64,000 bases of DNA from Erodium maritimum (taxonomy: Eukaryota > Streptophyta > Magnoliopsida > Geraniales > Geraniaceae). Numbering within the stretch: position 1 is the stretch's first letter; each line of letters opens with the position of its first letter. The position numbers and the translations under genes are program-made. Shown here in pieces: positions 1,441 to 61,768 of the stretch. The stretch covers positions 67,874,039 to 67,938,038 of the forward strand of contig OY997593.1 in assembly GCA_963921825.1 (NCBI GenBank). Direction: 5' to 3'. The notes under the pieces were generated by a model, which saw only the letters and a list, made by a program, of their open reading frames with translations, did no database searches and had not been told where the DNA came from.

Positions 1441-1909
1441 AAAGGTGAACGGCCGATTCAAAAATAACAAACTACAGAGGCAAAAAAAACCCTCCCGCCT
1501 CTCGTTTGCCCCTTTTTGCTCCACCGCCTCCGGCGGCTCTTGTGGTCCATCTCGGGCCATGAGAGCCGCTGGCCCTCCTGCCTCCACTCCCCTCCTCTCT
1601 CCTTGTTGCTCCTCTGACCTTGGCCGCCGTCTTCTCCTCTCGCCCTTCCCCCCGGCTCCACCCTTGTGGTCCCTCTCCTCGAGCTCGCCCTTTACCCCTT
1701 CCTATTGTGGCTGTGCCTTGCTCGCCTTTCTTCTCCTCTGGGCTCCGGTGCCGCCTCGCCTCCGCCTCCTCTCTTCTCGTTCTTTGACGCGTTGTCAGAT
1801 CTAGGGTTTGGGTCGGTTTGGCCGCTTCTCCGGCGTCTCTGCTGCGGCTCTTGGGGTCGCCGCCCTCTTCTTCTTCTCGGAGCTCCTTCTCGGCTCGGCT
1901 CACCCTTGT

Positions 1910-4900
1910 TGTAAGAACCGCCCCCGATCGACTCCGTTCGAACCGGTGACTTTGGACGAAGTTTGACTTTTGGCCGGAAAAGTCACCCAATGCCTCCGGA
2001 AGTCATTCGGGGCTTTTCTGGGGCCCAAAAAGCTTAGTCGTCATCACGGTTGGCTTAATTGGGCCGTTTCCATTCATTTGAGTATAATATCGAAGGAAGT
2101 CAAATTTGGTCAAAACCGAGCTTTTTATCGAGTAAATGCAATTAATTTTGGACTGCTGGATTTTAAATGGAAGAGAGTAGTCCCCACTATGCCAAGTGTC
2201 ACTAATAGCTTGGAGGAAAGGAAAGAGGCTCAAATGTCATCTCTACCCTCACTAGTTGTCCATGAAAGGGATAAGAACTAAAGGGTTTCTGGCCTTTTTC
2301 ACCTCTAGGTCTTTTTAAGGCATTAGATGACACAAATTCAGCTCATTTCTCTAGTGGTATCCGAAAATTGAGAGAGGAGGGAGAACTTGGAGCTTCCATG
2401 GTGTCTTGAAGAGAAAGCAAGAGAAAAGAGAGACCTTTTGTATCAATCTCTACCCAAATCCTCTCCAAAATACCTTCATCTTCATCAACTCATTCTCCTA
2501 GAGGTATGGATACTCACAACTCTCCATTTCATCTACTCTCATTTCTTGGGTTTTGTGGGTATTGGCTTGAAGTTGTTAAACTAGCCTTGTTTTGGTTATT
2601 TGGAGAAGAAGTAGTGAAGTAGGAGGTTTGGATTGTACTCTTGTTGAAGCTTTGATGAACCCATTTGAGGGTGTTGTTGTTGGGTGACTTTGGATGAACT
2701 TTTGGGAGTTTTTTATTTGATTGTGATTTGGAGAATCCTTGGAAACTTGTTTATTTGTTGATTTCTACCATGGGTAGAGGAGTTTTGGAGGTATTTGATT
2801 GTTTTGGGAGCTGGAAATGGTTAAAAATGGAGTTTGGTTGTGGATTTTCGGAGAAAATGAGCTGGAGGTTGAAGAAGGGCGGAACTGCCATGGAGCGTCA
2901 AGGATCTGTGATGGATCCCGTGACGGGCGACGTCACGGCTCCGTGAGGGAGACCGTGACGGCACACGTCACGGCTCTGTGACAGTGTCCGTGACCGACCA
3001 GTTTTGGGGGTTTTTGATGGTTTTTCCACCGTCTTGAGTTTGTTTTGGAGCTTAACTTTTGGAAGGGTTTTGGGGACTTTTGTTACTGTTAAGTAGAGTC
3101 TAATTAGAGTTGTTTTGTGTTCAAAGACCACAAGACCTTGAAGAACGAAGATCTTGAAGACCGAAGACCTTGCCGGTACCCGTGTGAAGAACGGTGTGGT
3201 GACTATCGATTGTGACATCAGAGTGTTAAGAGGAAGACCGCGAGGTAGGGGAAGTCTTAATTTCTTAATTAACGCTTAGTATGCATGATTAGGATAATAA
3301 AATCGGAAAGGTCCTAGAATTGCCTATAGGATGCGAATAACTAGAATAAGCGTATTTCAATTATTAATAACCGGAACTGTCTAGAATGTATGCTTAGGAT
3401 GAAGATGACGATTAGTGAAGCTTGCTTTCAATACTTGGGATTTGATTTACTGGTAGAGAGGATGTGAAGAGCTCTCGGATTAGTTGTGTGCTAGGTTCAC
3501 ATGCTTGGTTGTTAGTTATTAGGATAATATAAGAGTCTAATGAAACTAGATTAGCTTGTACGATTGAATACTTAATTGATCGTTCACATGATTGTTGATT
3601 GGTTGAATGCTTACTTGGTTGATTGAGTTATTGTGTTGTTATAATTGTTGATTGAACGGATGATCGAGTATGACTGGTTGTGCCAAGGGGTACAATCAGG
3701 TGATCGATGTACCAATGGTTCGTGATAGGTAAGTATGACGGTAAGGGTAATTGTGGGTATGAAACCTGTGTGGTATGTATTGATGAACGTGTGTACTTCT
3801 AAGATTGAGGATTAAGTGAACGTCTTTGGTGTATTGTGGTGAAAGTGTGATTCGATAAGAGTTGGTCGATGGACATATTATTGTATGCTTTCCTTATTCT
3901 TATTCTTGAATGTTAATGCTTGTTCCTTTATTCTTATCCTTGAATTGTATGCTTGCCTCTTTGTTTGTTTGGTTGTTGTTTGGTTCGGTACTACACCGGG
4001 GGGGGGGGGGGTAATCCGGTGCCGTTGTGGTGGTTGGAGTTGGACAGATACAGTGAGATATTGACTGAGTATTGGAGCCTGAGGGCATTGGTTACTGGAT
4101 ATTACGAGAATTGATTATTGGCAGATCCTGCGGGATATTTATTGATTATTGGCAGATCCTGCGGGATATTTATTGATTATTGGCAAATCCTGCGGGATAT
4201 TGAGTGATGAGAGAAGCCTGAGGGCTCGGCGGATCCTGCGGGATATTGAGTGGATTATTTCATGAGAGATGGTTACTGAGGTTTCACCCAAGGGCGTGCG
4301 TCCCAGCGGAGCACCACCTTGGTTCCCTATGACATATGGTCCTTTGGAGGCATTTCTGGGAATCCCGATGATAAGCGCCCAATTGGGACTGTTTCCGGTG
4401 CCCCAACGCATGTGCGTCCTCTGGACCGAGGGAAAATCTGATATGATATGGGTACTCTGGTGGATCGGAATATGGGAACCGATGTGATCCCAGAATCTAT
4501 CCATGGATCGGAGGCTTGAGAAAGCGAGTGATTGGCGTGATATTAATTGCTCCCATTTTAATAAGTTATGATTCGTTGTAGTACTTTCATGAAATCTTTT
4601 AAGTTACTGTTATCTTGGAAAAAGCGATACTATTTCAGTACCCGGATTCCATAGCATTTCATTGATTTATAGAATTTACTCGTTCCCGTTGTGTCGGTTT
4701 TATATTTTAGTATAACGTTCTCTATTTATTCTCTGGGATTTTATCGTTATCCTCGAGAATGCGTTATTGTTATCGTTGCTTCTTATTCGTTTATTATACC
4801 TTTTGGTCTAAGGGTTTGAAATACTTTTGTGGCATCGAATTAAAGCAGCTTTAATATTAAACTCGGAGACTAAAGTTATTTACGATTTTCCCTACTGAGC

Positions 4901-22903: not shown

Positions 22904-24678
22904 TCAAACAACTGTCGGCTCGACTCCCACCAACCACGGGTGACTGCCGATCATCGTGGTTGTCCCTGGCCCAATCGACCTTCTTGCCCCATCCTTAATC
23001 AACTCTTGAGCCGATAAGAGACTTTGCCATACAAAACTCTGGTTAGGTTTCCGGATCGCTTCCAAGAACGAGGACTCCGGGTAGTACCGAGCTTTTAACA
23101 CTCTCGCGACCAAACTGGACTCATTCAGAAGAAGCCTCCAGAGCTGCTTTCTTAATAGGACTGAGTTGAAATCATACATATTTTTAAACCCCAATCCCCC
23201 CTCTTCCTTAGGGCGTGACATGGTCGCCCATGATTGCCAGATGACACCCTTATTGTCCGCCCCGGTCGATTTCCACCAAAACCGAGCCAACGCCACATTC
23301 ATCTTCTCCAATAACCCTTTTGGCAGGCGCATAACACTCATTGTGTATGTAGGGATTGCTTGCAGTAACGACTTGACCAGGACCTCCTTGCCAGCCCCGT
23401 TTAAGAGCTTGTCGTCCCATCGTTGAATTCGTTGAAGTACTCTAGTCAGTATATATTGTAATCCTTGCTTCCTGCTGCGTCCCATCATATTAGGGATACC
23501 CATGTAGGGGGATGGTTGGGTCAACTCCGGGATTCCCAATATCCTAACTCCTTCCACCCGCCGCGAGGTAGGCGTGTTGACACTAAAGAAGAGCGACGAC
23601 TTCTGTTGATTCACAATCTGACCTGACGCCTCCTCAAACATACGTAAGTACCCCTTGACACGACCCATCTCCAGTGGGGTCGCCTTGCAGTACACATAAC
23701 AATCATCAGCAAAGAACATGTGAGTCAGTGGAGGCGCCCGAGGGGTTCTAGTACTCCATGTATCACCACTGCACCCTCCGCCCCTTGCAGCAGCCTCGAG
23801 AACCCTTCCATGCAAAACAGGAACAAGTACGGGGATAGTGGGTCTCCCTGTCTAATTCCCCTTTCCGGTTGGACAAAGCCCGCTTGCTGCCCTCCCGCTA
23901 CAATATTATATGTGACAGAATACGTACATCGGCGGACAAGGTTGATCCAATCCTCCCTCAGGCCAAAGCCCCGCATCATGTCCCACATAAAACCCCATTC
24001 TACACGATCATATGCTTTACTCATATCCAGCTTCAGAGCCACCCACCCCTCCTTGCCCTGCTTCTTGTTCTTCAAATAATAAAGGGTCTCATATGACAAT
24101 ATGATATTATCCTGGATCGAACGTCCCGGTACAAACACACCTTGGGTTGCCGATATAAGTCCATCCAACAGGCCTTTCAGTCGATTCGCCACCACCTTCA
24201 AGACAATCTTGAAGATCACATTACACAGCGCAATGGGTCGCAGATCCTTCAGGGACATCGGGCACTCTACTTTCGGAATCAGGACCCGTGTTGTCCTGTT
24301 CAGATCTCTCGGGATCTCCTCTCCCGCAAAAACTCTCCTCGCCCAGCGGGTGACATCCTCACCCACTGTACTCCAATACTTCTGGTAGAAGAACGGGTTC
24401 AGACCATCCGGCCCCCGCGACTTGTTTGGCCCCATAGAGAAGGTGGCCTCCCTTACTTCCTCAGAGGACACTTCACTCATAAGCGCCCGGTTTTGTTCTT
24501 CTGTTACTTGTTGCTGGAACCGAGGACAATTGATTCCCTCCCCCCGAGTCTTCCTTGACAGGGTCTTGTAGAACTCCAAGATATGTTCCCCTAGCCCCGT
24601 ATCCCAGGAAAGAATATTCCCCTCTGCATCCTTCAGCTCCGTCACCTTGTTTATATTTTTCCGTTGCGAAGCCGACAC
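22904..24678 (-). pseudogene. LINE ORF2 part 2: reverse transcriptase, frameshifted
   Basis: Two overlapping frames, 24678-23725 and 23815-22904, form one RT domain with a frame change near 23725-23815. The first holds VLIPKVECP, DLRPIALCN, the catalytic LKLDMSKAYDRVEW and GIRQGDPLSPYLF. The second holds FFADDCYVY, the FADD version of the YxDD active site, then the thumb and connection regions with LPKGLLEKMN and FWWKS. The motif order matches plant L1 elements. The frame change shows it is dead. Confidence 0.9.
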
Positions 24679-31372: not shown

Positions 31373-33312
31373 TGTTACGACCCTGTGAGATCGAACACGT
31401 TATGGCGCTCTTGTAGGACTGAAGATCCAATCCAAGGTTTCGCTGGAGCGAAGCCTTGTTCTTGTTTCTCCCTATTGTGAGTGACCCCAGGCTCAGATTA
31501 TAGAGGGACCCTGATACCTCTTAGAGAACAAAGCAGTAAACTCAATTCTCAATGCTTTATTCATGAATCCCTCTGGTATATATATAACCAGAGAGCTTTC
31601 CTAAACAACCCAAATTCCTAATTCAACAATAACTCCAAATTACCCAAAGTTTCCAAATCCTAATATAACTGAAATTAAGAAAGCAATTAAAAAGGGAAAC
31701 AGAATCAGCCGACTCTGTAGGGACGTGCGCGCGCGACTTCCTTTCCCCTTGCTGCGCGCGACTTCTCTTCCATTGTGGTGTGTTTTAGCCCATTCCCTTA
31801 CGGTCCGTAAGGCCCATAACATCACTCCCCCCTGCACAAGGCGCTTGTCCTCAAGCGCATAGGGTGAATCCATTATCTGGGCAGCCCTGTCCTCGACCTC
31901 GTCCTCGATCATCTCCAACCAAAAAAGCTTCGCACACTCGTGACCTGGGAAGTAAGTTTCATCACAGTTGAAGCAAAGGCATTTATCGATTCGCTCTTGC
32001 TTCTCGGCCTGAGAAATCTGCTTGAGAAATAACCGAGGAGAATTATCCATGGCTGTTCGTCTGCTCGGAGCTATAACTGATGGAGGTTTAGCCTCCTCAC
32101 GAGTGCGTTCTTCGTAGAGCTTGGCTAGCCCCATGGCATGAGTCAGATCACGTGGCTGCTGAATTTTCACATCGATTGCCAGAGATCTGTGCAAGCCACT
32201 CAGAAACAGAGAAATTTCTTGATCCTGCTGCAAACCAGACACCTGGGCCGCTAGTCGCTCGTACTGGGTTGCGTAGTCTGCAACTGAGCCGGTATGTTTT
32301 AGCTTTGCGAGTTCACCCAGCCGGTTGCCCTTAAACATCGAGCCGAACCTGGTGTGGCAATACATCTTAAACGCCAGCCAATTTAGGTTAGGAAAGTCCA
32401 CCTGGAGTTTCATGTACCATAATTGGGCGTCATCCTCCAGATGGAACGATGCCAGCAGAACTTTCTCCTCCTGCGTCGTGCGTTGGTGGAGAAAGTAACT
32501 CTCGCACCTATTCAGCCATGCAGTCGGATCAGCACGTCCATCGAATCGTGGGAATTCGAGACGCGTAAAACAAGGCGCGAGGGCGCCTCCATCTCCTCCC
32601 GTCCCTGCGACGGGTGTCACAAGTGCGACCCGGTCCCTCTGTCGGGCAGCAGGGGTCGAGCTCCCTTCGAGCTGCTCCGAAGGTGTGGACAAGGACTGGA
32701 CCCGCAGAGCCAGCTCATCGATCTTCCGTCCCTGCAGAGCCAGCTCATCGATCTTCCGTGTCTGTGCTGCGGCTTGAGTTTGGGCTGCAGCAAACGCTGC
32801 AATCAAGTCATCCAGTTTCTGCTCCATGGATTTCTGTGCCATAATGCTCGGCTCTGATACCAATCTGTTACGACCCTGTGAGATCAAACCCGTTATGGCG
32901 CCCTTGTAGGACTGAAGATCAAATCCAAGGTTTCGCTGGAGCGAAGCCTTGTTCGTGTTTCTCCCTATTGTGAGTGACCCCAGGCTCAGATTATAGAGGG
33001 ACCCTGATACCTCTTAGAGAACAAAGTAGTAAACTCAATTCTCAATGCTTTATTCATGAATCCCTCTGGTATATATATAACCAGAGAGCTTTCCTAAACA
33101 ACCAAAATTCCTAATTCAACGATAATTACAAATTACCCAAAGTTCCCAAATCCTAATATAACTGAAATTAAGAAAGCAATTAAAAAGGGAAACAGAATCA
33201 GCCGACTGTAGGGACGTGCGCGCGCGACTTCCTTTCCCCTTGCTGCGCGCGACTTCTCTTCCATTGTGGTGTGTTTTAGCCTATTCCGTTACGGTCCGTA
33301 AGGCCCATAACA
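31373..33312 (-). mobile_element. Gag-only LTR retrotransposon (TR-GAG type), 1.94 kb
   Basis: Two LTRs of 449 and 447 bp (31373-31821 and 32866-33312) start TGTTACGACC and end GGCCCATAACA on the plus strand. The element is flanked by the 5-bp duplication GTATC (31368-31372 and 33313-33317). On the minus strand the 5' LTR is followed by the primer site TGGTATCAGAGC (32853-32864), complementary to initiator tRNA-Met. The 3' LTR is preceded by a purine tract (GCAGGGGGGAGTGA, 31822-31835). The only ORF is gag. All pol domains are absent, so mobility would need an autonomous gypsy partner. The two LTRs differ at only a handful of sites, so the insertion is fairly recent. Confidence 0.92.
31640..32842 (-). 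CDS. Ty3/gypsy-type Gag polyprotein with zinc knuckle
   Basis: An intact frame of about 400 codons. I prefer the start MAQKSMEQKL at 32842, about 10 bases inside the primer site; the frame is open upstream but there it is LTR. A coiled-coil start is followed by the retrotransposon Gag core (PRFDGRADPTAWLNRCESYF, then ASFHLEDDAQLWYMKL and FKMYCHTRFG). A Cys-rich knuckle follows, CFNCDETYFPGHEC, a CX2C...HxxC form usual in plant gypsy elements. Past the knuckle a short acidic tail would normally lead to protease; here the frame runs through a short linker into the 3' LTR and stops there. Gag forms the particle that packages element RNA. Confidence 0.88.
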   Translation of the reverse strand: MAQKSMEQKLDDLIAAFAAAQTQAAAQTRKIDELALQGRKIDELALRVQSLSTPSEQLEGSSTPAARQRDRVALVTPVAGTGGDGGALAPCFTRLEFPRFDGRADPTAWLNRCESYFLHQRTTQEEKVLLASFHLEDDAQLWYMKLQVDFPNLNWLAFKMYCHTRFGSMFKGNRLGELAKLKHTGSVADYATQYERLAAQVSGLQQDQEISLFLSGLHRSLAIDVKIQQPRDLTHAMGLAKLYEERTREEAKPPSVIAPSRRTAMDNSPRLFLKQISQAEKQERIDKCLCFNCDETYFPGHECAKLFWLEMIEDEVEDRAAQIMDSPYALEDKRLVQGGVMLWALRTVREWAKTHHNGREVARSKGKGSRARTSLQSRLILFPFLIAFLISVILGFGNFG

Positions 33313-36777: not shown

Positions 36778-39700
36778 TCATGATGGTTGGTCAGGAAAAA
36801 CTTTCTCCATGAAAGTGACGAACCGATGAGCATAGAGCTTAGGTTCAACCACAGAGATCAAGCGAGGATCGTTTTGCAACGATTTACAGGCATGCTCCAC
36901 CTTCTTCCTCGTGTTGTATTGCTGAAGAATATCGATTATTCCCATGTAGAGAACCACGTCGTACACCTCGAAAAGTTCGATTTCAGCTGAATCATCATCA
37001 ACGTCGTCGTCCTGCTGAACCTTGTGATTGGCCTGAGCAGGCATGTTCACTCCCAACTGCACCGGCAACCTGAAAATTACCCTGAAACAGTTCAGCAAGC
37101 TACCTTGTAAAGTTTTGGTAAGGTGGTACAATGTCAGAAGCTACCTTGCAGTACCGGGCAGTAAGAGATCGACTTCCTTTTCACCAACAGAGTATGCTCT
37201 GAGGATATTTCCTCTAACGTGAGGGCCCGGTGTTTTTCTCACAGTGCTTGGTTCATGAGTTACCAAAATGAGGCCTTTTGGAGGAATTGAAAGCTCCCCT
37301 TGTGAAGTTACATCTAATGAAAGCCGAGCATTAGCTGAACTATATCGCATAATTTATAGTGAAAATCTCACTCAGCTACCCCTAAGTATGCACCATTATC
37401 AACTAACTACCCCTGATTTTGGGTGTGAAATGACGAAAATACAATCATGAAAAGTAAGGGTTTATTCGTCATTTCACACCCCCAAAGGTTGACGAAATTG
37501 ATGTGGATTGAAACTAAAAAAGCTTAACGGGGATTGTCAAAAACTTTTAAGACTTAGGGATAGTTGATGTGAGATTTAAATGTAATCAAGAACTAGTTAG
37601 TGTAAGTAACATGTTCATATCTCAAAAGAACAATTACCATCACTGCCCGAGAAACTCTCGTGATTGCTCATGGACTCTGAAGATTCTAAGAGCATTTTCA
37701 AATGCTCGGGAGCTCTAAAATGTAACCCCAACAGAAGGCTGTAATCGATTATTTGTTGAGATTCCAAGAACTTGCAATCCCGACGTAACTGTCTGAAAAA
37801 AAATAATAAGAATAGAAGATGAAATCGGCCCGTTTGCATTCAGATTTGATGATAAAAGTAGCACAAACTTACTTGAAAAGTGCGTGTCGCAATAACTTAT
37901 CCATGTAGAATTCGTAATCAAGATCACAATCTTTCAAAGTGGTATTCTCTTGAATTTTATCTTTATCCGTACATCTTCCAACTGTGGACCCCTTGAGGTC
38001 ATAACGACGGTGGATCCGCAATTCCGTGCAAAACATATTCCCCATAACTACAAATCGTACCTTAAAACAAACAAAAACAAGCACAAGTCATATGCATAGA
38101 GCCATAGACACATAGTATAAAAAAAACTAAGGCCACATGATGGAATATCAAATACCTTTTTTCCACCTCTCAACGTTATTCGATGGAGTCCGAAAAATTT
38201 GGTTATAAGAGTATTCTCATGCCCTTTAACATGGTTGAAATAGTTCGGGAGCATATTAAGAAGAACCTATGAAGCAAAAGAAAATATATATTATTCTGTA
38301 AATGATCAGATAGTTTAGTACAAAGTATTGTGTTGGTATAAACCTTCAGTTCAGATCGTTTCACTGTCTTGATCACGAATTTATCATCGTGAGAAAGATA
38401 GAAGATGCTGCCACTTTTCCCCGGTGAAGAAATCTCCTTCAGACCATCATCGCCACAAATGGACATCATATATTCAGCTGCATCTAATTTGAACATCTCC
38501 CTCAAATTCCTGTGAATAAGTAGTTTTAGGATTACCATAATATTTCAAACTCACGTGTAAGTCACGTTACAAAAAAAGTCCGAAAATTTTGATTGTTTCC
38601 GCATATTTTGTACTATGGTGACACGTGAAAATTCATAAGGAAGGTCATATGTCTGTAAAATTTACTATGAGGTCATGAGTTTGAAGGTTCATTCATAAAG
38701 GAAGTTATGTGCAATCAACCCAACATTGAAATACACATTTCAAGAACCGGCATTAAAAGCTAAGCAAGCATGATGTACGAAACAAATAAATACCTGAAGG
38801 CCATAGGGCAATAGTCCTTCCAGTAGAAATCGATGGAATAATGTGGAGGGGTAAATTGTGAACCCTTTTTAGGGAAATACATTCGTATCCTCGCTCGATC
38901 TCCAAAGTCAGAACCTCTAACATCACGAACCGGTACCGGAGTGATTTTGCCAACAGTATACCTGTGAACTTCAAATAAAGCACTTCATAAGTTCAATAAC
39001 AAGTCATATATCAGAGAGGAACTTTTATCTGAAGCCTTTGGGTATAAATAGGTTTACCTGATACCGAGCTGCAAATTGAGCATTAAATAATAGCTCCGGT
39101 GGTTATCGAATATATTTACACACGAACTTTTCTTCGTTTCCTTCGCATTGAATTTGTTACGATGTTTCCGTCTCTCTGATGGATGAGTTCGATTTCTAAC
39201 TCTCTCTTTTATCAAAACTCCTTGCACATATTCCCTTTCGTAAACTGCAGAACTGTTATCCTGCACCCGCTCAAAGTTTTGACCGACATCGGACGGGCAC
39301 GACATAGTGCATGAGATGTCATCACTCGAAAGATCTTCGGTACGATTACTAAAGCTCAACTTTTCGTCTAATGGCACATTCTGGTGCGATATCCTCCCCG
39401 AGCTTCTCACGACGGAGATCCTCTCGGAAAGAGTACGCCTCACGTCCGAATTCAGCGATGGACTGTGAGCTAACGAGTTCCCGTCATCGTTGTATCCGAC
39501 CGAGCTACACCATTTCTCAAGAGATGGGTCTCTACTTCCAATGGGATAGAATGTTCCTTTCCCGTCTTTTAGATCCTTCGACCACATCCCAAAATAATAC
39601 CCTTCATCGGCGTACCTATAAACTCCGGACCCGTGACGAAGCCCATTCAACCAAAGCCCGTCGAAAAGGTCACCGTTAGCCCATTTCATAATCCCTCGAC

Positions 39701-40234
39701 CGCACATCTTACCGCCCTTCCAATTCCCGATATACGTGTTCCCGTTACTCCAAGAATATCTACCGTTACCATCTTGCACGCCTTCCTTCCACGAGCCTTC
39801 ATAGATATCAGAATTGGAATATTCCTTTCTTCCTAACCCGTGTGGAATATTCATCCTCCACGCTCCGGTGTAAACGGATCCATCAGGCCTAGTGAAGGTG
39901 CCGAAACCATTTACATAACCTCCGGAGAAATCTCCCTCGAACTTCGCTCCCGATGGCCACGTCATTCCCCCTTTCCCCGTCATCTTTCCTTCTTCCCAAT
40001 CGCCCTCATAGACCGTTCCGTCCGACCACGTGTATTTTCCTTTCCCATGAGGAACCGTTCCTTTACAATCACCAACATAAATGTCTCCATTCACAAACAC
40101 CTTCTCATTAAGCCTAGATACAGGAAATGCATACCTTGAGATGCAAATAAAAACCAAAACAAATAAAACAACAAGAATAGACATTTGAATGTCGAGTATG
40201 ACCTTTCCAAATGGAACAAATCTATAAGTTTCAT
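36778..40234 (-). CDS. PIP5K: Phosphatidylinositol 4-phosphate 5-kinase, MORN-repeat type (PIP5K7/8-like)
   Basis: Exons: 40234-40203, 40113-39058, 38961-38794, 38509-38344, 38266-38156, 38060-37873, 37792-37638, 37334-37145 and 37069-36778. All joins keep phase, giving 785 codons. The N-terminal part has eight MORN repeats ([10 protein letters not shown] to [10 protein letters not shown]). The kinase part has the ATP-binding Lys in [11 protein letters not shown], the [12 protein letters not shown] motif, the catalytic-loop [11 protein letters not shown], the MGIIDILQ motif and a Lys-rich activation loop ([16 protein letters not shown]). The enzyme makes PtdIns(4,5)P2 at the plasma membrane, for trafficking and actin control. 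The short first coding exon ([10 protein letters not shown]) is inferred from phase, a T-rich 89-bp intron and a good acceptor. The unspliced alternative starts at 40271 and would insert a hydrophobic stretch. Arabidopsis PIP5K7 has a very similar layout. Confidence 0.9.
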
Positions 40235-40735
40235 CGCCAATTCCTCGCTTATCTCCGAGCAAGTCGGTCATGCAGTACAATATCGAACTTCATCTTTCAC
40301 CATATACACAAGACCACCTTATCCAGTTACGAGATTCTGAGTACACAACGAAGTTGTCATAGTTAGATATAAAAATTTCTTCCACCAAACAAAAAGGGAC
40401 ATGCATTTCAATCGAGTTTTTTTCCTTTTTACTTGAAGAATCTTAATTTATGTTGAGCATTACTTCCATCTGAAGGCTTTGCTACAGACAAAAAGGGAAA
40501 CCTTGCATTAGAGAACTATCAGATTCTTTTCTTCTATTTTTAGGAATTCCTTTAACATTCTTATCCTTTTCCAAGTAACGCTCTCAGTGTCATTACTAAG
40601 CAACATACGTATACGACACAGTATGAGGAAATTACTACTGCACTCTGCTACTTATGATACGTATTTCCTAATAAAATTAGCAGCATCTCTCGAGTGTGAT
40701 CATGGGAAAACAACTCTTCAAACTATACAGAAAGG

Positions 40736-41759: not shown

Positions 41760-43837
41760 TTTAAATTCTTCCATGCAAGGAATGGAGAGAAGCTCCTTGA
41801 TTAAGAATCATGCCACGTGTACACAATTCACCATCCTTCCCATGGCCCACCATTGTCCTTAATTTCTAATTAAAAAACACTTGAATGCGCTGAATTTTGT
41901 TCCATCTTTTGGTTTCAAGCTCTAAACTTTAGCTTCTCAAGATCTCCTAATATCTTGATTTCAAGTCCAAGTCATAAAAATCATCGAATAATATTAGTTT
42001 CTTTTATTCGTTTCAAAGTCAGTGTCATCAAAATTTGTAATATAATAGATAATACAAAACGACATCTTAGACTTAATCTATGAACGTGAAGGCATCTTTG
42101 TGAAATAATTTTTAAGACAATTATATATAAAATACAAACATAGTGTCCACTTTCTGCTGTTAATCTGATAATTGAGAATCTGGTACTGTCCTTTCTCTCT
42201 CTTTTTCCTTCCCAATTGCTCCACGATAACACTAATATTCTCGTGAAACAAACATAGTTTGTAATGTCAACTAGGCACACAATTTGAACAAGTAATGCCA
42301 AAATTGCAAATGATAAAGCACTGACCTCAGAGGAGCTATTACAATGCTCTGTTTTTTTTCAGATTCCAGTCCTGTGAAGGCCTCTCCGGCGTCAGGCTCC
42401 GGCGAGTCCTCGCCGGAGATCGGCGAAATTGGGGGTGAGTGAGAAAGATTGGATCTTTGGAGCGGCAGAGGAAAGGGGTGTTTGAATATTGTTGATCTGA
42501 GTCGTCCCAGTTAAGAAGAGACGGTTGCAAGACATGTGGAAGAGCATGGATAGGGACAAGACAGAGACAAAAGACAACCTCGGAGTTAGACGAAGGTTTT
42601 GACATTGCAAAAGGCGGCGCAACAATTATGCCTCTTGTGTTCCTAATTTGTGTCGGATGAAAGAACAAAACAACAGTACTGTGAGAGTGACTTCTTCGAT
42701 GACTGAACAGCCAATTTGTGAACCAAATTTTTGACACTTGGCTCTTCGATTTGAACTTCTATTGACCTATTATATATCTATATATGTTTAAATTAAACCA
42801 AGATAAGATAATAATATACATTTTCAGTCGAAAACAGAATCATAATTGAATGGTTGTATATCAAAAAAAAATGAATGGTAATTTCTAATTTGTAAAATAG
42901 GTTTTGAAAACCTTGGTAAGTAAGACTAATTCAAATTTAAAATCTTTACAAAAAAGTTTCTATTTTTAACGATTTTATCTTTATAAAAATATATAAGAGG
43001 ATGTAAATCACGTTCGATTGGGTGTTTATGTTTATAGACCGAAAGATGACTCGAATGCTTATTTGGGATAAATATAACTTCCTTAATATAAAGTTATGGG
43101 TTCGGTGATTCACTCTGTTTTCGAAATAAGGTTATTTAGTTCTAAATAAGTTTAATAGTGTTTTAGACTGTCGGTTTTTTAACGAAATAACTGACCGTAG
43201 GGCTGATCAATAATTGGGTGCATCTTATAGTTCAAATAAAACACATGGCTGTGACCCATAATTGTCGATTGTCGGATTCATCCAGGCTTGGGTGAATAGC
43301 TAGAGTATGTCTTGTAGTTCACACATGGCTATGACCCACCCTTGATTTAATCACTTATTATCAAATTTAACTTTCAATCCTTTTATCCACTGAACGAAGG
43401 CATGTTTTTTTTTTTTTTGACATTGAATGTGCATATAATTAATATAGGAAGTCTAAAGGTTTAGATCATCTAATGGTAAACTAAAAAAATAGAATCCAAT
43501 CAAAATAAAAGTAATAAAATATGTTATAAAAATATTAACATTAAGAGACTGATAGAAAAATGAAAAGGATACTCATTTGTCGAACCACTCCACAGTTATT
43601 GTCAGAATGATGTTGTGATAGCGGTCGAGACCACCAGTACAGCTGGCGATGACGAGATTTTTTTTTCTTCTGAAACTTGGATGACGAGAAAGTAGGGTTA
43701 AGCAAGCATATCGCTGGAATAGAATTGGCGACATGGCGGGCTGAGTGCTCCTCCGAGGTTCCAGTTGACGTCATCCTCCCTTGGATGATAGATTAGAGGC
43801 TTCAAAAACATGTTGATCATGTCCCTTGAGAAGGTAG
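41760..43837. other. Intergenic sequence with small repeat-like inserts
   Basis: Mostly AT-rich. A block at 42350-42740 is richer in GC and, on the minus strand, ends in an A-run (CAGATTCCAG complement, then AAAAAAAA). It carries a 132-codon frame with no recognised domain, and may be a small retro-insert. A T14-15 run at about 43399-43413 marks another possible A-tail. Nothing else was recognised. Confidence 0.3.
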
Positions 43838-44432
43838 TGTTGGGGAGAACCGGGCCTTATTAAGGAGGAGCACACAACAAGAAGCCCATAATATACACAT
43901 TGGCCACCACACTTGACCTAAAAGACTAGCCTCTCAGGTCATGGGTCCAAGGTGTATATTAAGTCTTCTCTTTTTCCCTGAGTATCCGATGTGAGACTCG
44001 TGACTCACATGTGGACACACCTAACAATCTCCCCCTCCACATTGAGTCTCATCACATCGGCTTGCTCGCACTCCTAAGCCCAACTTTTTATCAGTTCTAC
44101 TCAATCCCTTACGGGCCCACTTCATCTTATCTGGGCCCACCACCATGAGAGCAGCGATCATGGTATCCTGGTGTTTCTGGCCCTAGGAGATATACCCCGA
44201 CCCTCTTCCTGGGAGAGTCCACAGAACCAGGCTCTGATACCACTTGTTTGGGAGAACCGGGTCTATCAAGGAGGAGCATACAATAAGAAGCCCATAATAC
44301 ACACATTGGCCACCCCACTTGAACCAAAAGACTAGCATATCAGGTCATGGGTCCAAGGTGTATATTAAGTCTTTCTTTATCCCTTAAGTATCCGATGTGG
44401 GACTCCTGACTCACATGTGGACATACCTAACA
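43838..44432 (-). mobile_element. TRIM-like LTR pair forming the left part of the mosaic
   Basis: LTR copies 43838-44026 and 44245-44432 are about 90% alike. On the minus strand they start TGTTAGGT and end CTCCCCAACA or CTCCCAAACA. The 218-bp middle has a purine tract (GTGGAGGGGGAGAT on the minus strand) by the left LTR and a tRNA-Met primer site by the right one. Alone it would be a TRIM of about 595 bp. No target duplication fits this pair on its own; the only fitting pair spans the whole mosaic. Confidence 0.65.
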
Positions 44433-45275
44433 ATCTCCCCCTCCAGAGTTCCTACCTCTTCCGTCCACGTTCAACACGGAGCCTAACGATTTTCCAGAAT
44501 TCCTTCTACGAATATCTTCCCCGAGAATCAAGTCTCTTACCCCAACAACTGGTATCAGAGCCCGGTTCGTGGCAAGTGGGAGCAATGGCAGAAGATGGGA
44601 AAGTTCGAATCGACAAGTTCGATGGGAAAGATTTTGGATTCTGGAAGATGCGGATTGAGGATTATCTGTACCAGAAGAAGCTACATGAACCGTTATCATA
44701 GACCAAACCAGATAAGCTAAGTTCGGCCGATTGGCAGTTGCTAGATCGACAATCACTTGGTGCGGTGAGGTTGACATTGACAAGGAACGTTGCCTACAAC
44801 GTAATGAAGGAGACAACTACCTACGGACTAATAAAGGCGCTATCAAATATGTACGAAAAACCGTCTGCATCAAACAAGGTATATTTGATTCGTCTATTAG
44901 TTAATACGAAGATGAGGGAATGTGCTAATGTTACTGATCATGTGAACGAATTTAATACGATATTATCCAGATTAGTGTCAGTGGATATTAAATTCGATGA
45001 TGAGGTACAAGCCCTATTGTTGTTGTCTTCGTTACCTGATAGTTGGTCAGGAACCGTCACAGCAGTTAGTAGTTCGTCTGGATCTACTAAACTGTCGTTC
45101 GAGGGGATAAGGGACTTGATTCTCGGGGAAGATATTCGTAGAAGGAATTATGGAGAATCGTCAGGCTCCGTGTTGAACGTGGACGGAAGAGGTAGGAACT
45201 CTGGAGGAGGAGATTGTTAGGTATGTCCACATGTGAGTCAGGAGTCCCACATCGGATACTTAAGGGATAAAGAAG
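44373..45275. repeat. Inverted repeat, arms about 160 bp, inside the mosaic
   Basis: Arm 1 at about 44373-44537 is the reverse complement of arm 2 at about 45108-45275, with only a few mismatches. Landmarks are CACATGTGGACATACCTAAC against GTTAGGTATGTCCACATGTG, and CCGTCCACGTTCAACACGG against CCGTGTTGAACGTGGACGG. Each arm spans a gag end, a purine tract and an LTR start. A transcript through it could fold into a long hairpin around the gag remnant. Confidence 0.85.
44585..45220 (+). pseudogene. Copia-type gag (UBN2-like) remnant with a premature stop
   Basis: Starts MAEDGKVRIDKFDGKDFGFW 24 bases after the primer site, the classic start of Ty1/copia Gag in plants. A stop at 44699-44701 breaks it. 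It resumes as SADWQLLDRQSLGAVRLTL, with further Gag motifs (NKVYLIRLLVNTKM, DEVQALLLLSSLPDSW), and stops in an acidic, Gly-rich tail at 45220. The zinc knuckle, protease, integrase and most of RT are missing. The last 110 bases are repeated in inverse at 44433-44537. Confidence 0.85.
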
Positions 45276-45289
45276 AAGGATGTAATCTT

Positions 45290-45749
45290 AGAAGGGTTTT
45301 CTGATGCAAACTTAGGTGGATGTTTGGACACAAGGAAGAGTACTACAGGGTACGTCTTTACCTTGGGTGACACAGCAGTTAGTTGGATGTCTCGACTGCA
45401 GAAGAGTGTTGCTCTTTCAACCACTGAAGCTGAGTACATGGCTATTTCAGAAGCTGGAAAGGAAATGATATGGTTGAAGAATTTCTTGGAGGAGTTAGGG
45501 AAGAAACAGGCAGACAGTCCTTTGTATAGCGACAATCAGAGCGTCATTCACTTCGCCAAGAATCCTTTATTTCATGCTAGGACGAAGCATATTCAGTTGA
45601 GATATCATTTCATTAGAGGATTAATGAATGATGGTACTTTGTCCTTGAAGAAAATCCTTGGGTCAAAGAATCCTGCAGATATGTTGACCAAGGTTGTTAC
45701 AACGGAGAAGCTGAAGTTATGCATAACTTCAGCTGGCCTTCATGGTTAG
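45290..45749 (+). pseudogene. Copia-type RNase H domain, isolated
   Basis: An open frame with SDANLGGCLDTRKSTTGYVF, VSWMSRLQKSVALSTTEAEY, LYSDNQSVIHFAKNPLFHAR and TKHIQLRYHFIR ends at a stop after SAGLHG. These are the hallmark motifs at the end of Ty1/copia pol, with the catalytic Asp, Glu (TEAEY) and Asp (YSDNQS) in place. It is cut off from RT by the internal deletion and has no start of its own. The purine tract CAAGTGGGAGAT and the 3' LTR follow. Confidence 0.85.
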
Positions 45750-46210
45750 TTGGAGGAAGATGTCTCACTACCTCAGAAGCTTATTGATGGTGCATTGGGG
45801 TGTTATTGGAGTTACATGAGTAGGAGTGAAGTGAAGACATTCATGGACAGTCTCCAAGTGGGAGATTGTTAGGGTTGTGTGGAGACTTCCTATTTTATTT
45901 AGGAAAGGTCTAGTCTTCCTAATAGATTTAGGTAAGAGACTTGAGTAGGCAATTAGAGGAGATTTCCTATTATGATTAGGAAACCTAATTCCTACCTTAT
46001 TTTACCCATTGTCTTCTCCTATAAATACCATGTACTTGTAACCCCAAATCATTCATTCATTGTGAGAGCAATAAGAAGAGAGTAGTGAGACCGTGGACGT
46101 AGGCAAATTTCCGAACCACGTAAATTCTTGTGTTCTTGTGTGATTGCTTATTTTCCCTTGGTTTCTTCTTGCTTGAATATTGTTCCACGTTGTTATACCC
46201 CAACAGGTAG

Positions 46211-48002
46211 GGGGTATCGTGTCGGAACTTAGTGGAACCTTTAAAACCCTTACCAGTCCTACCGGCCCTAGTTGGGTGAGGCGAGGGTGTCCCCCCCCCC
46301 CCCCCCCCCCCACCCCTTCTCATTGTCCTGGATGTGCGCTCCATCGGAGTTCGCTGATCTCGCAGGCTTTGCTCCCAAAAAATCGTCGACTAGTCACTTC
46401 CTCCAATCCAGAAGAGATCATGTAGCCGGTCCTAGATAACCCAAGGGCCGATCCCCAACCCTTCCGCTTGAAAAGGTTTGGGACGGTTCTCAAAACGAGG
46501 ACGAAAGATGCACATGGCCCTTTCTTTTTCTGTGACTTCCTTCTTCTATCATCCTAGGGGTAAGGAGTGGTGTAGGAGATGTCCTCTCCAGTGAGAAATG
46601 AAATGGAGAGTTTCTCTCTTTCTTCTAATGGGAAATATCCTACCCTGAGATGACGTGTCAACGGCCCCTGCACTACTTTCCAATTTCCTTTGTGATCCAC
46701 GGGCCTACGATAGGGAGGGTTTCAAGTATTCACTCTAATCCCGGGGGACGAAGTGACTTCTTTATGTACTAAAGTGCAAGACGGTTCCCCTTAGTGCCCT
46801 CGACTCGAACCCCGAAGGTCGTGATCGGTCCGAGCTTTCACTCGGGAGACCTTTGGTTCAATCATGGCCCTCATTAAGACCTCTCTCACTCATGCACCCA
46901 CAGGGAAAACAATAACCATGTAGCTTTCACAATTGCAGTCCAAAACAATGATCCGAGATATATTCATATGATAGTTGCAAGAAAGACCTTACTTCTGATT
47001 CCAACGAGTAGAACCATAACTAACGTTGTAGAGGAATTCGAGCATCGAGACAAACTCGGATCCGCATGAAAACTCCCCAACTCATCCCGTCAACGTCGTC
47101 ATCTAAAGCCAAACAGGTTCTTAAAGTGCCTCCGTTCCTAGAGCCAACGCCCCTATATAGGCTCCCACCAAGAGGTTGGTGACGCGGACCCATACCGGTA
47201 AAAGTGGGTAAATAGAATGTTCGGGGAGGGGGGGCATGTGCGACCTTAGATCAACAAACAATACCAATGATCGACGAAAATCTCAAGGCTTCCTTACCAA
47301 GACCATGGCTCTCGCGAGCATCCAACTACTCAACTCCTTCGTACCTGAATATCGTACCCTCAATTGTTTTAGACTCGTTCTCCCGAACATTAGTGCCCCT
47401 CAAGAATGGCACCCCATGACGACCACCATGGGTCCCCGCTGACAAACCATGCATGGTTCCCATCGAGGTCCTACAAACATGAGTAGCCTACCTCCTACAC
47501 CAGGTATTCAACAAAACCCCCGACAACGTCTCAAATCCCCTCGTCCCCCACTAAACCCGCTGACTTCCCTCAATGGAGGAGTCTCTTTGTCGTGTTCCCA
47601 GCGACCCATCCTTGGGATCCCTCCAGAATCTCCTATCAATCCATGCAAGGCCTCCTCCCTGACCCATAAATCCCCAAGTCCCGAGGTTTGGCGGGAGAAC
47701 CTACACCGACGTCGTCGTTCGACCCACCCGAGCGGCCCTAGGTCGAGGACCAATCGTCGTCGTACAACACTGGATCGGATTGTGGCACCACCCTATGTGT
47801 CTAAGACAGAGAGGAAAACGGAGATGCATTCTCCGAGAATACCATCGTCGACCCATCCTGAGGAGACGCTTGACCATGAGCCGTCGTTGCTGGTAAAAGA
47901 GGGTCGATCATGTTTATCATTGTTGTCGAGAAAAAAGAAGAAGGAGAAGTTATTTTCAGATCTACTACAGTGCCTAAAGAGCCGCTAGAACCTCTTATCT
48001 AG
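46211..48002. repeat. Degenerate GC-rich repeat block, unassigned
   Basis: About 1.8 kb of higher GC with scattered short frames. The longest (47449-47988, 179 codons) is Pro/Arg/Ser-rich and has no known domain, as expected by chance in GC-rich DNA. A C21 tract sits at 46291-46311. The character matches the blocks at 11020-12120 and 57000-58250. Probably an old retroelement remnant. Confidence 0.3.
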
Positions 48003-59250: not shown

Positions 59251-59560
59251 CAACATTCGAGTTTCTGTGACCCCATGCTCACGGAAAAACAACCAAAAAC
59301 TTAAATTTACTGCTTGTTTTTATTTTTGTTTTCCAAGTAATTAGCTTCAGAAACAACAAGTCCTGTTGTATCTTATAAACGGGATGTTCAATTGTTTTCT
59401 AATGCGATTTTCATATTGTCCAGAACTCTGCAACCTGATACTTCTCGCTCGATCGCCAGAGCTTCCAGCCGCCACATCTCTCCCCTTCCACAGTAAAACC
59501 TGGTTATGGAGCGATGACGAAGCTCCTTCTCTTTCATTTTCATGGTCTTTCCCACCAGAC

Positions 59561-61768
59561 ATGAAGAGGCTTGCTATTTCATTTTCAGTCAATCGTTTTC
59601 GAGCTCTCTCTTACAATCAAACCTCGAGGCATTTGGTCTCGAGCCTCGCACCCTCCAACTCCAGGCCCTTCCCCGATTATTCCCCGAAGAAGCCCACCAT
59701 TAAGGACTCCGAGCTCGTGCACCACATCTCGACGGCCATTAAGCTCCGCCGCTCCGAGCCTCTGCGCCGCACCCTGAAAAGTTACGAATCCAGTTTCAAA
59801 CCCGACCACCTGATATGGGTTCTCATGAATATCAAGAGTGATTACAGATTGGTGCTTGATTTCTTTGACTGGGCGTGCCTGCGGAGGGCCCCAACTCTTG
59901 AAGCGCAATGCATTATGGCTCACATTGCTGTGGCTGCCAAGGACCTCAAAATAGCTCACAGGCTTATTCTGGATTTTTGGGCGAAACCCAATTTGGATGT
60001 TGCTGATTCTTACGCCCATTACGTCGAACGGTTGATATACACTTACAAGGATTGGGGTTCTGACCCCAACGTGTTTGATATATTGTTCCAAGTGCTTGTT
60101 GAAGCGAGGTATCTCAGCGAGGCAAGGAGGTTCCTTGACAAAATGTTGACTTATGGGTTGATTATGTCTGTTGATTCTTGTAACTTGTATCTTAGTCGTT
60201 TGTCCAATGGTACAGATGGGGCTAAGGTTGCAACAAAGGTTTTTGAGGAGTTTCCTGAATTGGGTGTTTCTTGGAACACTGAATCTTATAACACCCTTAT
60301 TCATACTCTCTGTTCTTCAGGGAAGCTAAAAGAGGCCCACCTTTTACTGGTACAAATGGAGTTGAGAGGCTGTCCGCCTAATGTTGTAAGTTATAGTACT
60401 CTAATGAATGGATATTGTAAAGTTGGGAGTCTAGAGAAGATATTGAAGCTTATAGAAGAAATGCAATCAAAAGGGTTGCACTCAAATGCATACACATTCA
60501 ACAGCATCATTTCACTCCTGTGCAAGTTTGATAGAGTAGTGGAAGCACAGAAAGTGATGTGGGAAATGATGAAGCAGGGGGTATCTCCAGATGTTGTGGT
60601 TTACACAACACTTATTGATGGGTTCTGTAAGTTGGGGAATGTTCAAGCGGCATATAAGTTGTTTGGTGAAATGCAGCGACGAAAGGTAGTTCCTGATTCT
60701 GTTACATATACTGCTATCATTCATGGGCTTTGTCAAACTGGCAAGATGGTTGATGCAGATAAGCTATTCTATGAAATGACTGCGGGAGGGTTCCAACCTG
60801 ATGAAGTTACCTATACAGTTCTTATCGATGGTTTTTGCAAGTCTGGTGATATGAAGAAGGCCTTTGCTCTTCACAATCAAATGGTTCAGGGAGGCCTTAC
60901 TCCAAATGTTGTCACTTACACTGCACTGGCTGATGGCCTTTGTAAACGTGGAGAGATGGATGCAGCTAATGAGCTTCTCCATGAGATGTCCAGAAAGGGT
61001 CTTCAACTGAACATATGCACTTACAATTCACTTGTTAATGGTCTATGTAAAGCAGGGGAGATAGCACAAGCCTTAAAGCTGATGGAAGACATGGAGGTGG
61101 CAGGGTTACATCCTGACACTATAACTTATACTACCCTGATGGATGCTTATTGCAAGTCGAGAGAGATGGATAAAGCTATTGATCTCTTGAGGTTGATGTT
61201 GGGTAGAGGTCTTAAACCTACTATAGTTACATTTGGTGTGCTGATGAACGGATTCTGTTTGTCTGGAATGGTTGAAGATGGCGAGAAGCTGCTAAAATGG
61301 ATGTTGAAGAAAGGTATAGTGCCAAATGCCACCATTTACAATTCTCTTATGAAGCAATATTGCATTAGAAGTAATATGCCAACCTCTACTAAGGTTTATA
61401 AAGAAATGTGTTCTCTTGGTGTGATGCCTGATAGCAACACCTATAACATATTAATAAAAGGGCATGCTCGAGCAAGGAATAGGAAAGAGGCACTTTCTCT
61501 GTACAAAGAAATGGTTGAGAAGGGATTTACCCTCACAGTAAGTACCTATGATGTGCTCATCAAGTGTCTCTTGAAGAGGAAGAATTTTGTGGAAGCAAGG
61601 GAGATGTTTGACAAGATGAGAAGAGAAGGGTTGGTTGCAGATAGAGAACTATACAACATTTTTCTTGATATGAACTATGAAGAAGGGAACATAGAATTAA
61701 CTCTTGAACTTTGTGATGAAGCGATTGAAAAATGCCTTATAGACAAGAGAAGGGTTGGTTGCAGATAG
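59561..61768 (+). CDS. P-class PPR protein, mitochondrial (At1g05670 type)
   Basis: An intronless frame of 735 codons. The start at 59561 (MKRLAISFSVNRFRALSYN) gives an Arg/Ser-rich amphipathic N-terminus suited to mitochondrial import; the frame is open further upstream to 59366 but that part looks like leader. From about residue 235 at least 14 PPR motifs follow in tandem (SYNTLIHTLCSSGKLKEAH, VYTTLIDGFCKLGNVQAAY, TYTTLMDAYCKSREMDKAI and so on), each near 35 residues. This is the Rf-like P-class layout for binding single-stranded organelle RNA. The sequence closely follows what I recall of At1g05670 (YTYKDWGSDPNVFD; PNATIYNSLMKQYCIR). The C-terminus is abnormal: a 124-bp tandem duplication shifts the frame and ends the protein with IDKRRVGCR. 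Confidence 0.93.
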   Translation: MKRLAISFSVNRFRALSYNQTSRHLVSSLAPSNSRPFPDYSPKKPTIKDSELVHHISTAIKLRRSEPLRRTLKSYESSFKPDHLIWVLMNIKSDYRLVLDFFDWACLRRAPTLEAQCIMAHIAVAAKDLKIAHRLILDFWAKPNLDVADSYAHYVERLIYTYKDWGSDPNVFDILFQVLVEARYLSEARRFLDKMLTYGLIMSVDSCNLYLSRLSNGTDGAKVATKVFEEFPELGVSWNTESYNTLIHTLCSSGKLKEAHLLLVQMELRGCPPNVVSYSTLMNGYCKVGSLEKILKLIEEMQSKGLHSNAYTFNSIISLLCKFDRVVEAQKVMWEMMKQGVSPDVVVYTTLIDGFCKLGNVQAAYKLFGEMQRRKVVPDSVTYTAIIHGLCQTGKMVDADKLFYEMTAGGFQPDEVTYTVLIDGFCKSGDMKKAFALHNQMVQGGLTPNVVTYTALADGLCKRGEMDAANELLHEMSRKGLQLNICTYNSLVNGLCKAGEIAQALKLMEDMEVAGLHPDTITYTTLMDAYCKSREMDKAIDLLRLMLGRGLKPTIVTFGVLMNGFCLSGMVEDGEKLLKWMLKKGIVPNATIYNSLMKQYCIRSNMPTSTKVYKEMCSLGVMPDSNTYNILIKGHARARNRKEALSLYKEMVEKGFTLTVSTYDVLIKCLLKRKNFVEAREMFDKMRREGLVADRELYNIFLDMNYEEGNIELTLELCDEAIEKCLIDKRRVGCR

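Follow-up and report, generated by a model that had tools for sequence, protein, structure and literature searches.

The window analysed here is a stretch of 64,000 nt from Erodium maritimum (G000:C6:67874039-67938038), and the genome in which its elements were searched for comprises 763 Mb in 40 contigs. Along the window are found an RVT_1 reverse transcriptase fragment (23725-24678, minus strand), a Ty3-type gag (31640-32887, minus), a MORN-repeat protein (39054-40280, minus) and an 800-aa open frame of PPR repeats (59366-61768, plus). The subject of this report is an insertion of 2368 bp at 43838-46205 which starts with TGTTGGGG, ends with CCCCAACA and, as a preliminary description had stated, has the target duplication GGTAG immediately outside both ends (43833-43837 and 46206-46210); the chance of a given 5-nt flank match is 1 in 1024. 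A complete minus-strand TRIM occupies the left of the insertion and a shortened plus-strand copia element the right, where it is closed by an unrelated LTR, and the orientation changes at 44539/44540. A long run of C is located near the right flank, at about 46293-46311.

TRIM elements are characterized by short LTRs (about 100-250 bp) and a short non-coding interior with a primer-binding site and a polypurine tract (PPT). The left half of the insertion consists, on the minus strand throughout, of an outer LTR of 189 bp (43838-44026), whose U5 end TGTTGGGG forms the left terminus of the insertion, an internal region of 218 bp (44027-44244) with the PPT adjoining 44027 and the primer-binding site AGTGGTATCAGAGCC adjoining 44244, and an inner LTR of 188 bp (44245-44432). 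Both LTR lengths, the interior, the primer-binding site and the PPT (GGAGGGGGAGAT) are those of a TRIM, and a 5-bp target duplication is found around simple copies of the family (L032, GGCCT; L056, CAGAA; L071, GGACT). What had been described as a minus-oriented, TRIM-like left LTR with a second copy inside is thus a whole minus-strand TRIM, 43838-44432. The inner LTR is followed by another PPT (44433-44443, minus), which abuts copia gag, the two having TG (44444-44445) in common; the junction first proposed at 44432/44433 is therefore the natural border of LTR and PPT, and the recombinant point lies near 44443/44444, where the PPT passes into gag. The two LTRs differ at 16 of 187 aligned positions and are more divergent than the arms of the inverted repeat described below (6 of 171; Fisher p 0.05), so that the TRIM part of the insertion can hardly be a simple fresh copy, and an older multi-LTR template may have been needed. 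Since the LTR pairs of simple TRIMs (20 loci) differ by anything from 1.1 to 9.0%, an age estimate from this pair was set aside.

Next to this PPT lies an inverted fragment of copia gag (44444-44539, minus). At the inversion joint 44539/44540, which reads CTTA|CCCCAACA and had been correctly placed on its 44540 side, two nucleotides (TA) are common to both partners. On the plus strand there follow the last 8 bp of the copia LTR (CCCCAACA) with AC (44540-44549), the primer-binding site TGGTATCAGAGC (44550-44561), which we take to be of the initiator-Met tRNA type, and the 5' part of gag (44585-45203), with an in-frame stop early in the frame. A second TRIM PPT (45204-45214) and the first 60 nt of a TRIM LTR (45215-45274) come next; the last five of these nucleotides, AAGAA (45270-45274), are shared with copia, and here too the earlier junction at 45274 was correct. 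The 3' internal region of copia (45275-45866) contains a frame at 45291-45746 followed by a PPT, and the copia LTR of 339 bp (45867-46205) closes the insertion with its U5 end CCCCAACA. By BLAST this LTR has no match to the TRIM LTR and the two are alike at the ends only, in agreement with the earlier view of a plus-oriented right LTR that is unrelated in its body. Gag and RNase H had both been placed in the middle of the insertion. The former is confirmed as Pfam Retrotran_gag_2 (PF14223, E 3.8e-23) in the piece downstream of the premature stop; the latter gave 0 families in a Pfam search with 45291-45746, and on a reading of the frame we refer to it as RNase H-like.

The copia part of the insertion is devoid of a 5' LTR, save for the last 8-10 bp, and of everything from within gag up to the RNase H region, and it has neither rve nor RVT_2. 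The family has many copies, each genome search returning the best 40 of 190 to 994 candidates. One of them, L027, has the order LTR, gag, integrase, reverse transcriptase, LTR, with the target duplication TGTAG, rve followed by RVT_2 in the frame 1587-3629 and further RVT_2 in 3660-4775. The gag of the window, of copia type, and the integrase of L027, which precedes reverse transcriptase, place the family in Ty1/copia; L027 ends in two like direct LTRs and the insertion in inverted LTRs of two families. The same copia family forms an array on another contig (G000:C9:45985761-46016381, in part L029), in which at least seven head-to-tail units, each an interior with one LTR, are spaced by exactly 4373 bp. 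Two neighbouring whole units have 0 differences in 4373 positions, and the array is either a very recent tandem or an assembly artefact.

An inverted repeat within the insertion has a left arm of 171 nt (44373-44543) to which the right arm (45104-45274) is 96% complementary. It is explained by the 60-nt piece of TRIM LTR on the plus strand, a third such piece that had been missed earlier and that bears the gag/PPT junction of the minus side. On the plus path copia gag ends at about 45203 and is continued by the TRIM PPT, the TRIM LTR to AAGAA and the RNase H region of copia. The minus path has the identical order of gag, PPT and TRIM LTR from 44539 down to 44433, and goes onward through the whole TRIM. 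The gag/TRIM junction is base-for-base identical in both arms: the gag parent reads CTCTGAAAGGGGGA, the TRIM parent ATGTGGAGGGGGAGAT in its commonest form, and both arms CTCTGGAGG, with TG shared. An explanation of the junction as a switch with a 4-nt deletion was rejected in favour of a plain switch because CTCTG occurs in 9 of 24 other gag matches in the fetched loci, some of which overlap. At the site of the junction the gag of the fetched copia copies has two main forms, CTCTGAAAG (for example in L012, L023 and L050) and TTATGAAAG (for example in L021 and L027), and both arms carry the former up to the switch.

In a genome search with 45110-45330 the whole junction was found in the two arms only among the best 40 of 785 candidates, and the remaining 38 matches stop at query positions 89-104, at the junction or in the purine tract. 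Nor does gag run on into TRIM in any of the 24 other gag matches in the fetched loci (some overlapping). As the whole junction is confined to the two arms in that search, a common origin of the halves is most likely, either in one chimeric molecule or in one parent that has been lost or is missing from the assembly; among the best 40 of those 785 candidates no parent element carrying the gag/TRIM junction was seen. A multi-copy chimeric subfamily was rejected on the same search, in which the junction is present in 43838-46205 only. Elements known as TR-GAG are non-autonomous and present in many copies, with a gag between two like LTRs, and the confinement of the gag/TRIM-LTR junction to the two arms (best 40 of 785 candidates) separates the insertion from them. 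A repetition of the same switch is made less unlikely by the position of the junction in a purine-rich stretch that is nearly common to both parents. The arms differ at six positions. Compared with the 24 gag matches (some overlapping), the plus arm has one variant of its own and the minus arm three, the variant at 45150 is also found in 3 of these 24, and at 45208, in the PPT, the plus arm deviates from the commonest TRIM form. Six differences would fit the amount expected from mutation after one event. Folded as RNA, 44373-45274 gives -483.4 kcal/mol against a mean of -250.9 in 20 shuffles (z -37), a strength that is due to the inverted repeat and does not imply transcription.

The flanks of the insertion, joined with one GGTAG, were found at 38 other places of a dispersed repeat at 70-88% identity (best 40 of 55 candidates, two of these 40 being the insertion site itself), with the alignments judged by coordinates and not by letters. 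The matches cross the joint in 34 of the 38, and their net length across it is unchanged in 17, shorter by 1-4 in 14, longer by 1 in two and longer by 7 in one. The empty site with a single GGTAG, which the earlier check sought in related accessions, is here present in paralogous repeats of the genome. Many of the joined-flank matches (flanks 43688-46290) end near the same right-hand bases. At the locus neither the TRIM half nor the copia half has a target duplication of its own, and what lies past the inner end of the TRIM is a PPT and not GGTAG. A separate duplication around each half, which had been named as the result that would overturn a single insertion, is absent here. As inner target duplications are absent, a nested insertion was rejected, and as the halves are not separated by target DNA, so were two adjacent insertions. 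A short sequence is shared at each of the three kinds of junction: TG, TA and AAGAA. The outer duplication, the paralogous empty site and the lack of inner duplications support the proposal of the preliminary description that one DNA, already recombinant, was integrated.

A genome search with the TRIM gave 71 matches that were resolved to 40 loci including the insertion (best 40 of 481 candidates); the 39 others were fetched and all 40 were scored by one script tolerating slight displacement of the ends. Of the 40, 20 are simple copies of about 590 bp. An internal switch of orientation is found in seven, a count that gives no genome rate since the sample is the best-scoring part of the 481 candidates and may favour arrays; the script had flagged eight, of which L073 was rejected as a simple TRIM with its own target duplication GTAAG. 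Exact, unshifted outer duplications of 5 bp flank four of the seven inverted loci (43838-46205, GGTAG; L021, TTAAC; L022, CCATT; L069, ATACT), and no target duplication was found at L031, where the right end is interrupted by another element, L058 or L070. The 33 same-orientation loci have an exact duplication in 19 cases by script and two more by eye (L063 and L073), a match of 4/5 in three (L061, L064 and L079) and none found in nine. One of these 19, L055 (also L035), has at the left, within ATATA, an inverted U5 stub of 10 nt.

Two of the inverted loci are composed of whole elements. L021 is a minus-strand TRIM head-to-head with a whole plus-strand copia, with the joint CCTAACA-ATTAT-TGTTAGG and U5 ends outside, and L022 is a whole plus-strand copia tail-to-tail with a minus-strand TRIM, with the joint CCCCAACA-AC-TGTTAGGG and U3 ends outside. 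Their LTR pairs differ at 2/188 (TRIM) and 2/340 (copia) positions in L021 and at 1/188 and 2/339 in L022, and such equally young pairs are as expected if the partners were made together. Most of the extra bases at the two joints are those that stand beside the LTRs in unprocessed cDNA (AT before U3, AC after U5); the joint of 43838-46205 is unlike them in lying inside gag, with TA shared. Further searches found each of the two joins once only (best 40 of 872 and of 905 candidates). A genome pattern scan for exact end-to-end joins, which mutated ends escape, gave one true head-to-head. A head-to-head match at C6:65819445 (L088) was rejected as unrelated, and so were six CCCCAACA..TGTTGGGG places at which the family bases beside the join gave 0 matches on either side. 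TRIM arrays with direct LTR-LTR joins of the form CCCCAACA-AGT-TGTTAGG were also seen at L086 (C1:31187200-31189700) and L069 (C6:70668000-70673500); these joins resemble 2-LTR circle junctions and sit within single target duplications, that of L086 being GGGGG in a run of G and hence weak. At L025 (C1:60554300-60557700) a minus-strand copia gag-LTR is joined by its U3 end to a plus-strand, 5'-truncated copia, and this inverted copia/copia join was left uncounted as its left end was not found and L087 held no piece of the element. At G000:C9:25194485-25194990 two TRIM U3 ends on opposite strands lie about 300 bp apart, which may be another inverted composite.

TRIM and copia are also fused on the same strand. 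L023 and L024 both have the order TRIM LTR, copia interior, copia LTR, TRIM interior, TRIM LTR, with single target duplications (ACCAC and TAAAC) and outer LTRs that differ at 2/192 and 2/188 positions, respectively; having been chosen for side-by-side TRIM and copia matches, they show the existence of such chimeras and not their frequency. From these same-strand chimeras with single target duplications, this copia is the likely partner of the TRIM, and we infer that this family furnishes the TRIM with proteins. About 24 bases near the primer-binding site are 92% alike between the two families.

We consider it probable, at about three chances in four, that 43838-46205 arose by one integration of a recombinant cDNA which had been built in a single virus-like particle with TRIM and copia RNAs. 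A joining before integration, the identical junction in the halves and a single insertion through two U5 ends with a 5-bp duplication all have direct support at the locus; a point against is that the exact path of recombination is inferred from joints of 2-5 shared nucleotides. RNAs of both elements would have been held in a shared particle, where reverse transcriptase, during minus-strand copying, would have switched between copia and TRIM at AAGAA (45270-45274) and a second time from gag to the TRIM PPT near 45203, with TG shared. Two minus-strand cDNAs, each begun at its own U5, might then have been joined at their unfinished 3' ends via the palindrome TA (44538-44539), and fill-in of both would give a duplex ending in U5 on either side, which could be accepted by the copia integrase. 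The joiner may have been the reverse transcriptase, by a template jump, or host microhomology end joining. As far as sequence can tell, the outer ends used were two U5 in 43838-46205 and two U3 in L022. Template switching with strand inversion had been suggested earlier; the recombination before integration and the co-packaged parents are supported. The inversion may or may not have come about by switching, and the joints of L021 and L022 fit end joining of linear cDNA ends better.

We assign somewhat less than an even chance to a larger role of the host, whose NHEJ or microhomology-mediated end joining would have linked two linear cDNAs that were complete or almost so, the inverted dimer then being integrated. 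Same-strand chimeras would here be the work of reverse transcriptase and inversions that of the host; the single integration is common to this explanation and to the one preferred above, and the joiner alone differs. The AT in the U3-U3 joint of L021 is found between PPT and LTR in both elements, the AC in the U5-U5 joint of L022 is what precedes the primer-binding site in copia, and with the direct U5-U3 joins of L069 and L086 all resemble unprocessed cDNA ends that have been joined. Outer ends of both kinds, U5/U5 and U3/U3, occur as well, and host alt-EJ acting on LTR-retrotransposon cDNA at primer-binding-site microhomology is described in a review (PMC12786077, section 3.4). However, the joint of 43838-46205 is inside gag and not at a finished end, the chimeric junction is common to both halves, which is unexpected of independent cDNAs unless they came from one chimeric RNA, and exact end-to-end joins are rare in the genome pattern scan. 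We regard it as doubtful, though conceivable, that this TRIM/copia system regularly gives rise to inverted cDNA dimers, joined head-to-head or tail-to-tail and integrated via like ends (U5/U5 or U3/U3). If so, inverted-dimer insertions would be natural inverted repeats of both families and could trigger small-RNA silencing of both partners together.

A rearrangement after integration, in which a TRIM and a copia inserted nearby and inversion or ectopic recombination deleted the DNA between them, is the usual origin of complex elements (PMC1950507), and several TRIM loci of the census are truncated. We nevertheless find it improbable: one common target duplication is not expected of it, yet is found in 43838-46205, L021, L022 and L069, and there is no target sequence inside the insertion, the joined site being continuous in paralogues. 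An assembly error fusing two repeats, for which the dispersed nature of both families and the suspiciously perfect array on C9 might speak, is very improbable given the exact outermost 5-bp duplications in four separate loci, three of them other than the insertion and so arguing against the misassembly that the preliminary description had named as a refuting result, and given the paralogue-consistent empty site.

The composites suggest that TRIM and copia use a common replication particle and that mirror-image fusions are still able to integrate. With two U5 or two U3 ends outside, they further suggest that a U5 end and a U3 end need not be paired for integration. According to PMC4717578, 278 of 289 TRIM subfamilies are without a known protein-coding partner. 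Compared with a likeness of ends, single-event chimeras are a more direct link between this TRIM and one copia family, and the approach is usable in any genome. Head-to-head and tail-to-tail insertions are named as possible hairpin sources in a paper on EVADE silencing (PMC11624286), and inverted composites are likewise a source of natural inverted repeats.

2-LTR circles are generally regarded as dead ends. The joins in L021, L022, L069 and L086 are like 2-LTR circle junctions or end-joined cDNA in keeping the 2-3 nt found beside LTRs in unprocessed cDNA, but differ from circles in being inside integrated DNA with target duplications. Inverted LTRs of unlike families are, as the preliminary description remarked, no standard class. 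An inverted TRIM/copia composite was not found in the accessible text of the open-access literature on inverted LTR insertions and their mechanisms (PMC6934838, PMC12312487 and PMC3017797 included; subscription journals fall mostly outside this scope), where the only inverted pair found was that of TRIMs in maize, published with a single target duplication by Gao et al. 2016 ('two inverted TRIMs', TSD CTTCA; PMC4717578, Fig. 2 legend, item C). The TA-TRIM arrays of that paper, which reports PCR and sequencing for them, resemble the insertion in being arrays of LTR, internal region and LTR with one target duplication, one of them inverted. In its accessible part they consist of TRIM throughout, whereas the partner here is a protein-coding copia, and the joints and the end types (U5/U5 and U3/U3) are described. 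Cassandra arrays, for which template switching is offered as one origin, are also of TRIM type, though in the accessible part of PMC7215508 without an inverted or copia-joined array. The closest parallel to the fusion as such is provided by the complexes that Sabot and Schulman 2007 (PMC1950507) attributed to direct template switching and recognized by a flanking duplication and like outer LTRs. 43838-46205 resembles these in the single 5-bp target duplication, GGTAG, round a fusion of two elements that was recombined before integration. Their complexes, however, are three-LTR fusions in which closely related elements lie on the same strand and share an inner LTR, whereas the halves of 43838-46205 are opposite, with the orientation flipping at 44539/44540, and its outermost LTRs belong to different families. 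It is L023 and L024 that combine a flanking duplication with nearly identical outer LTRs in the manner of those complexes.
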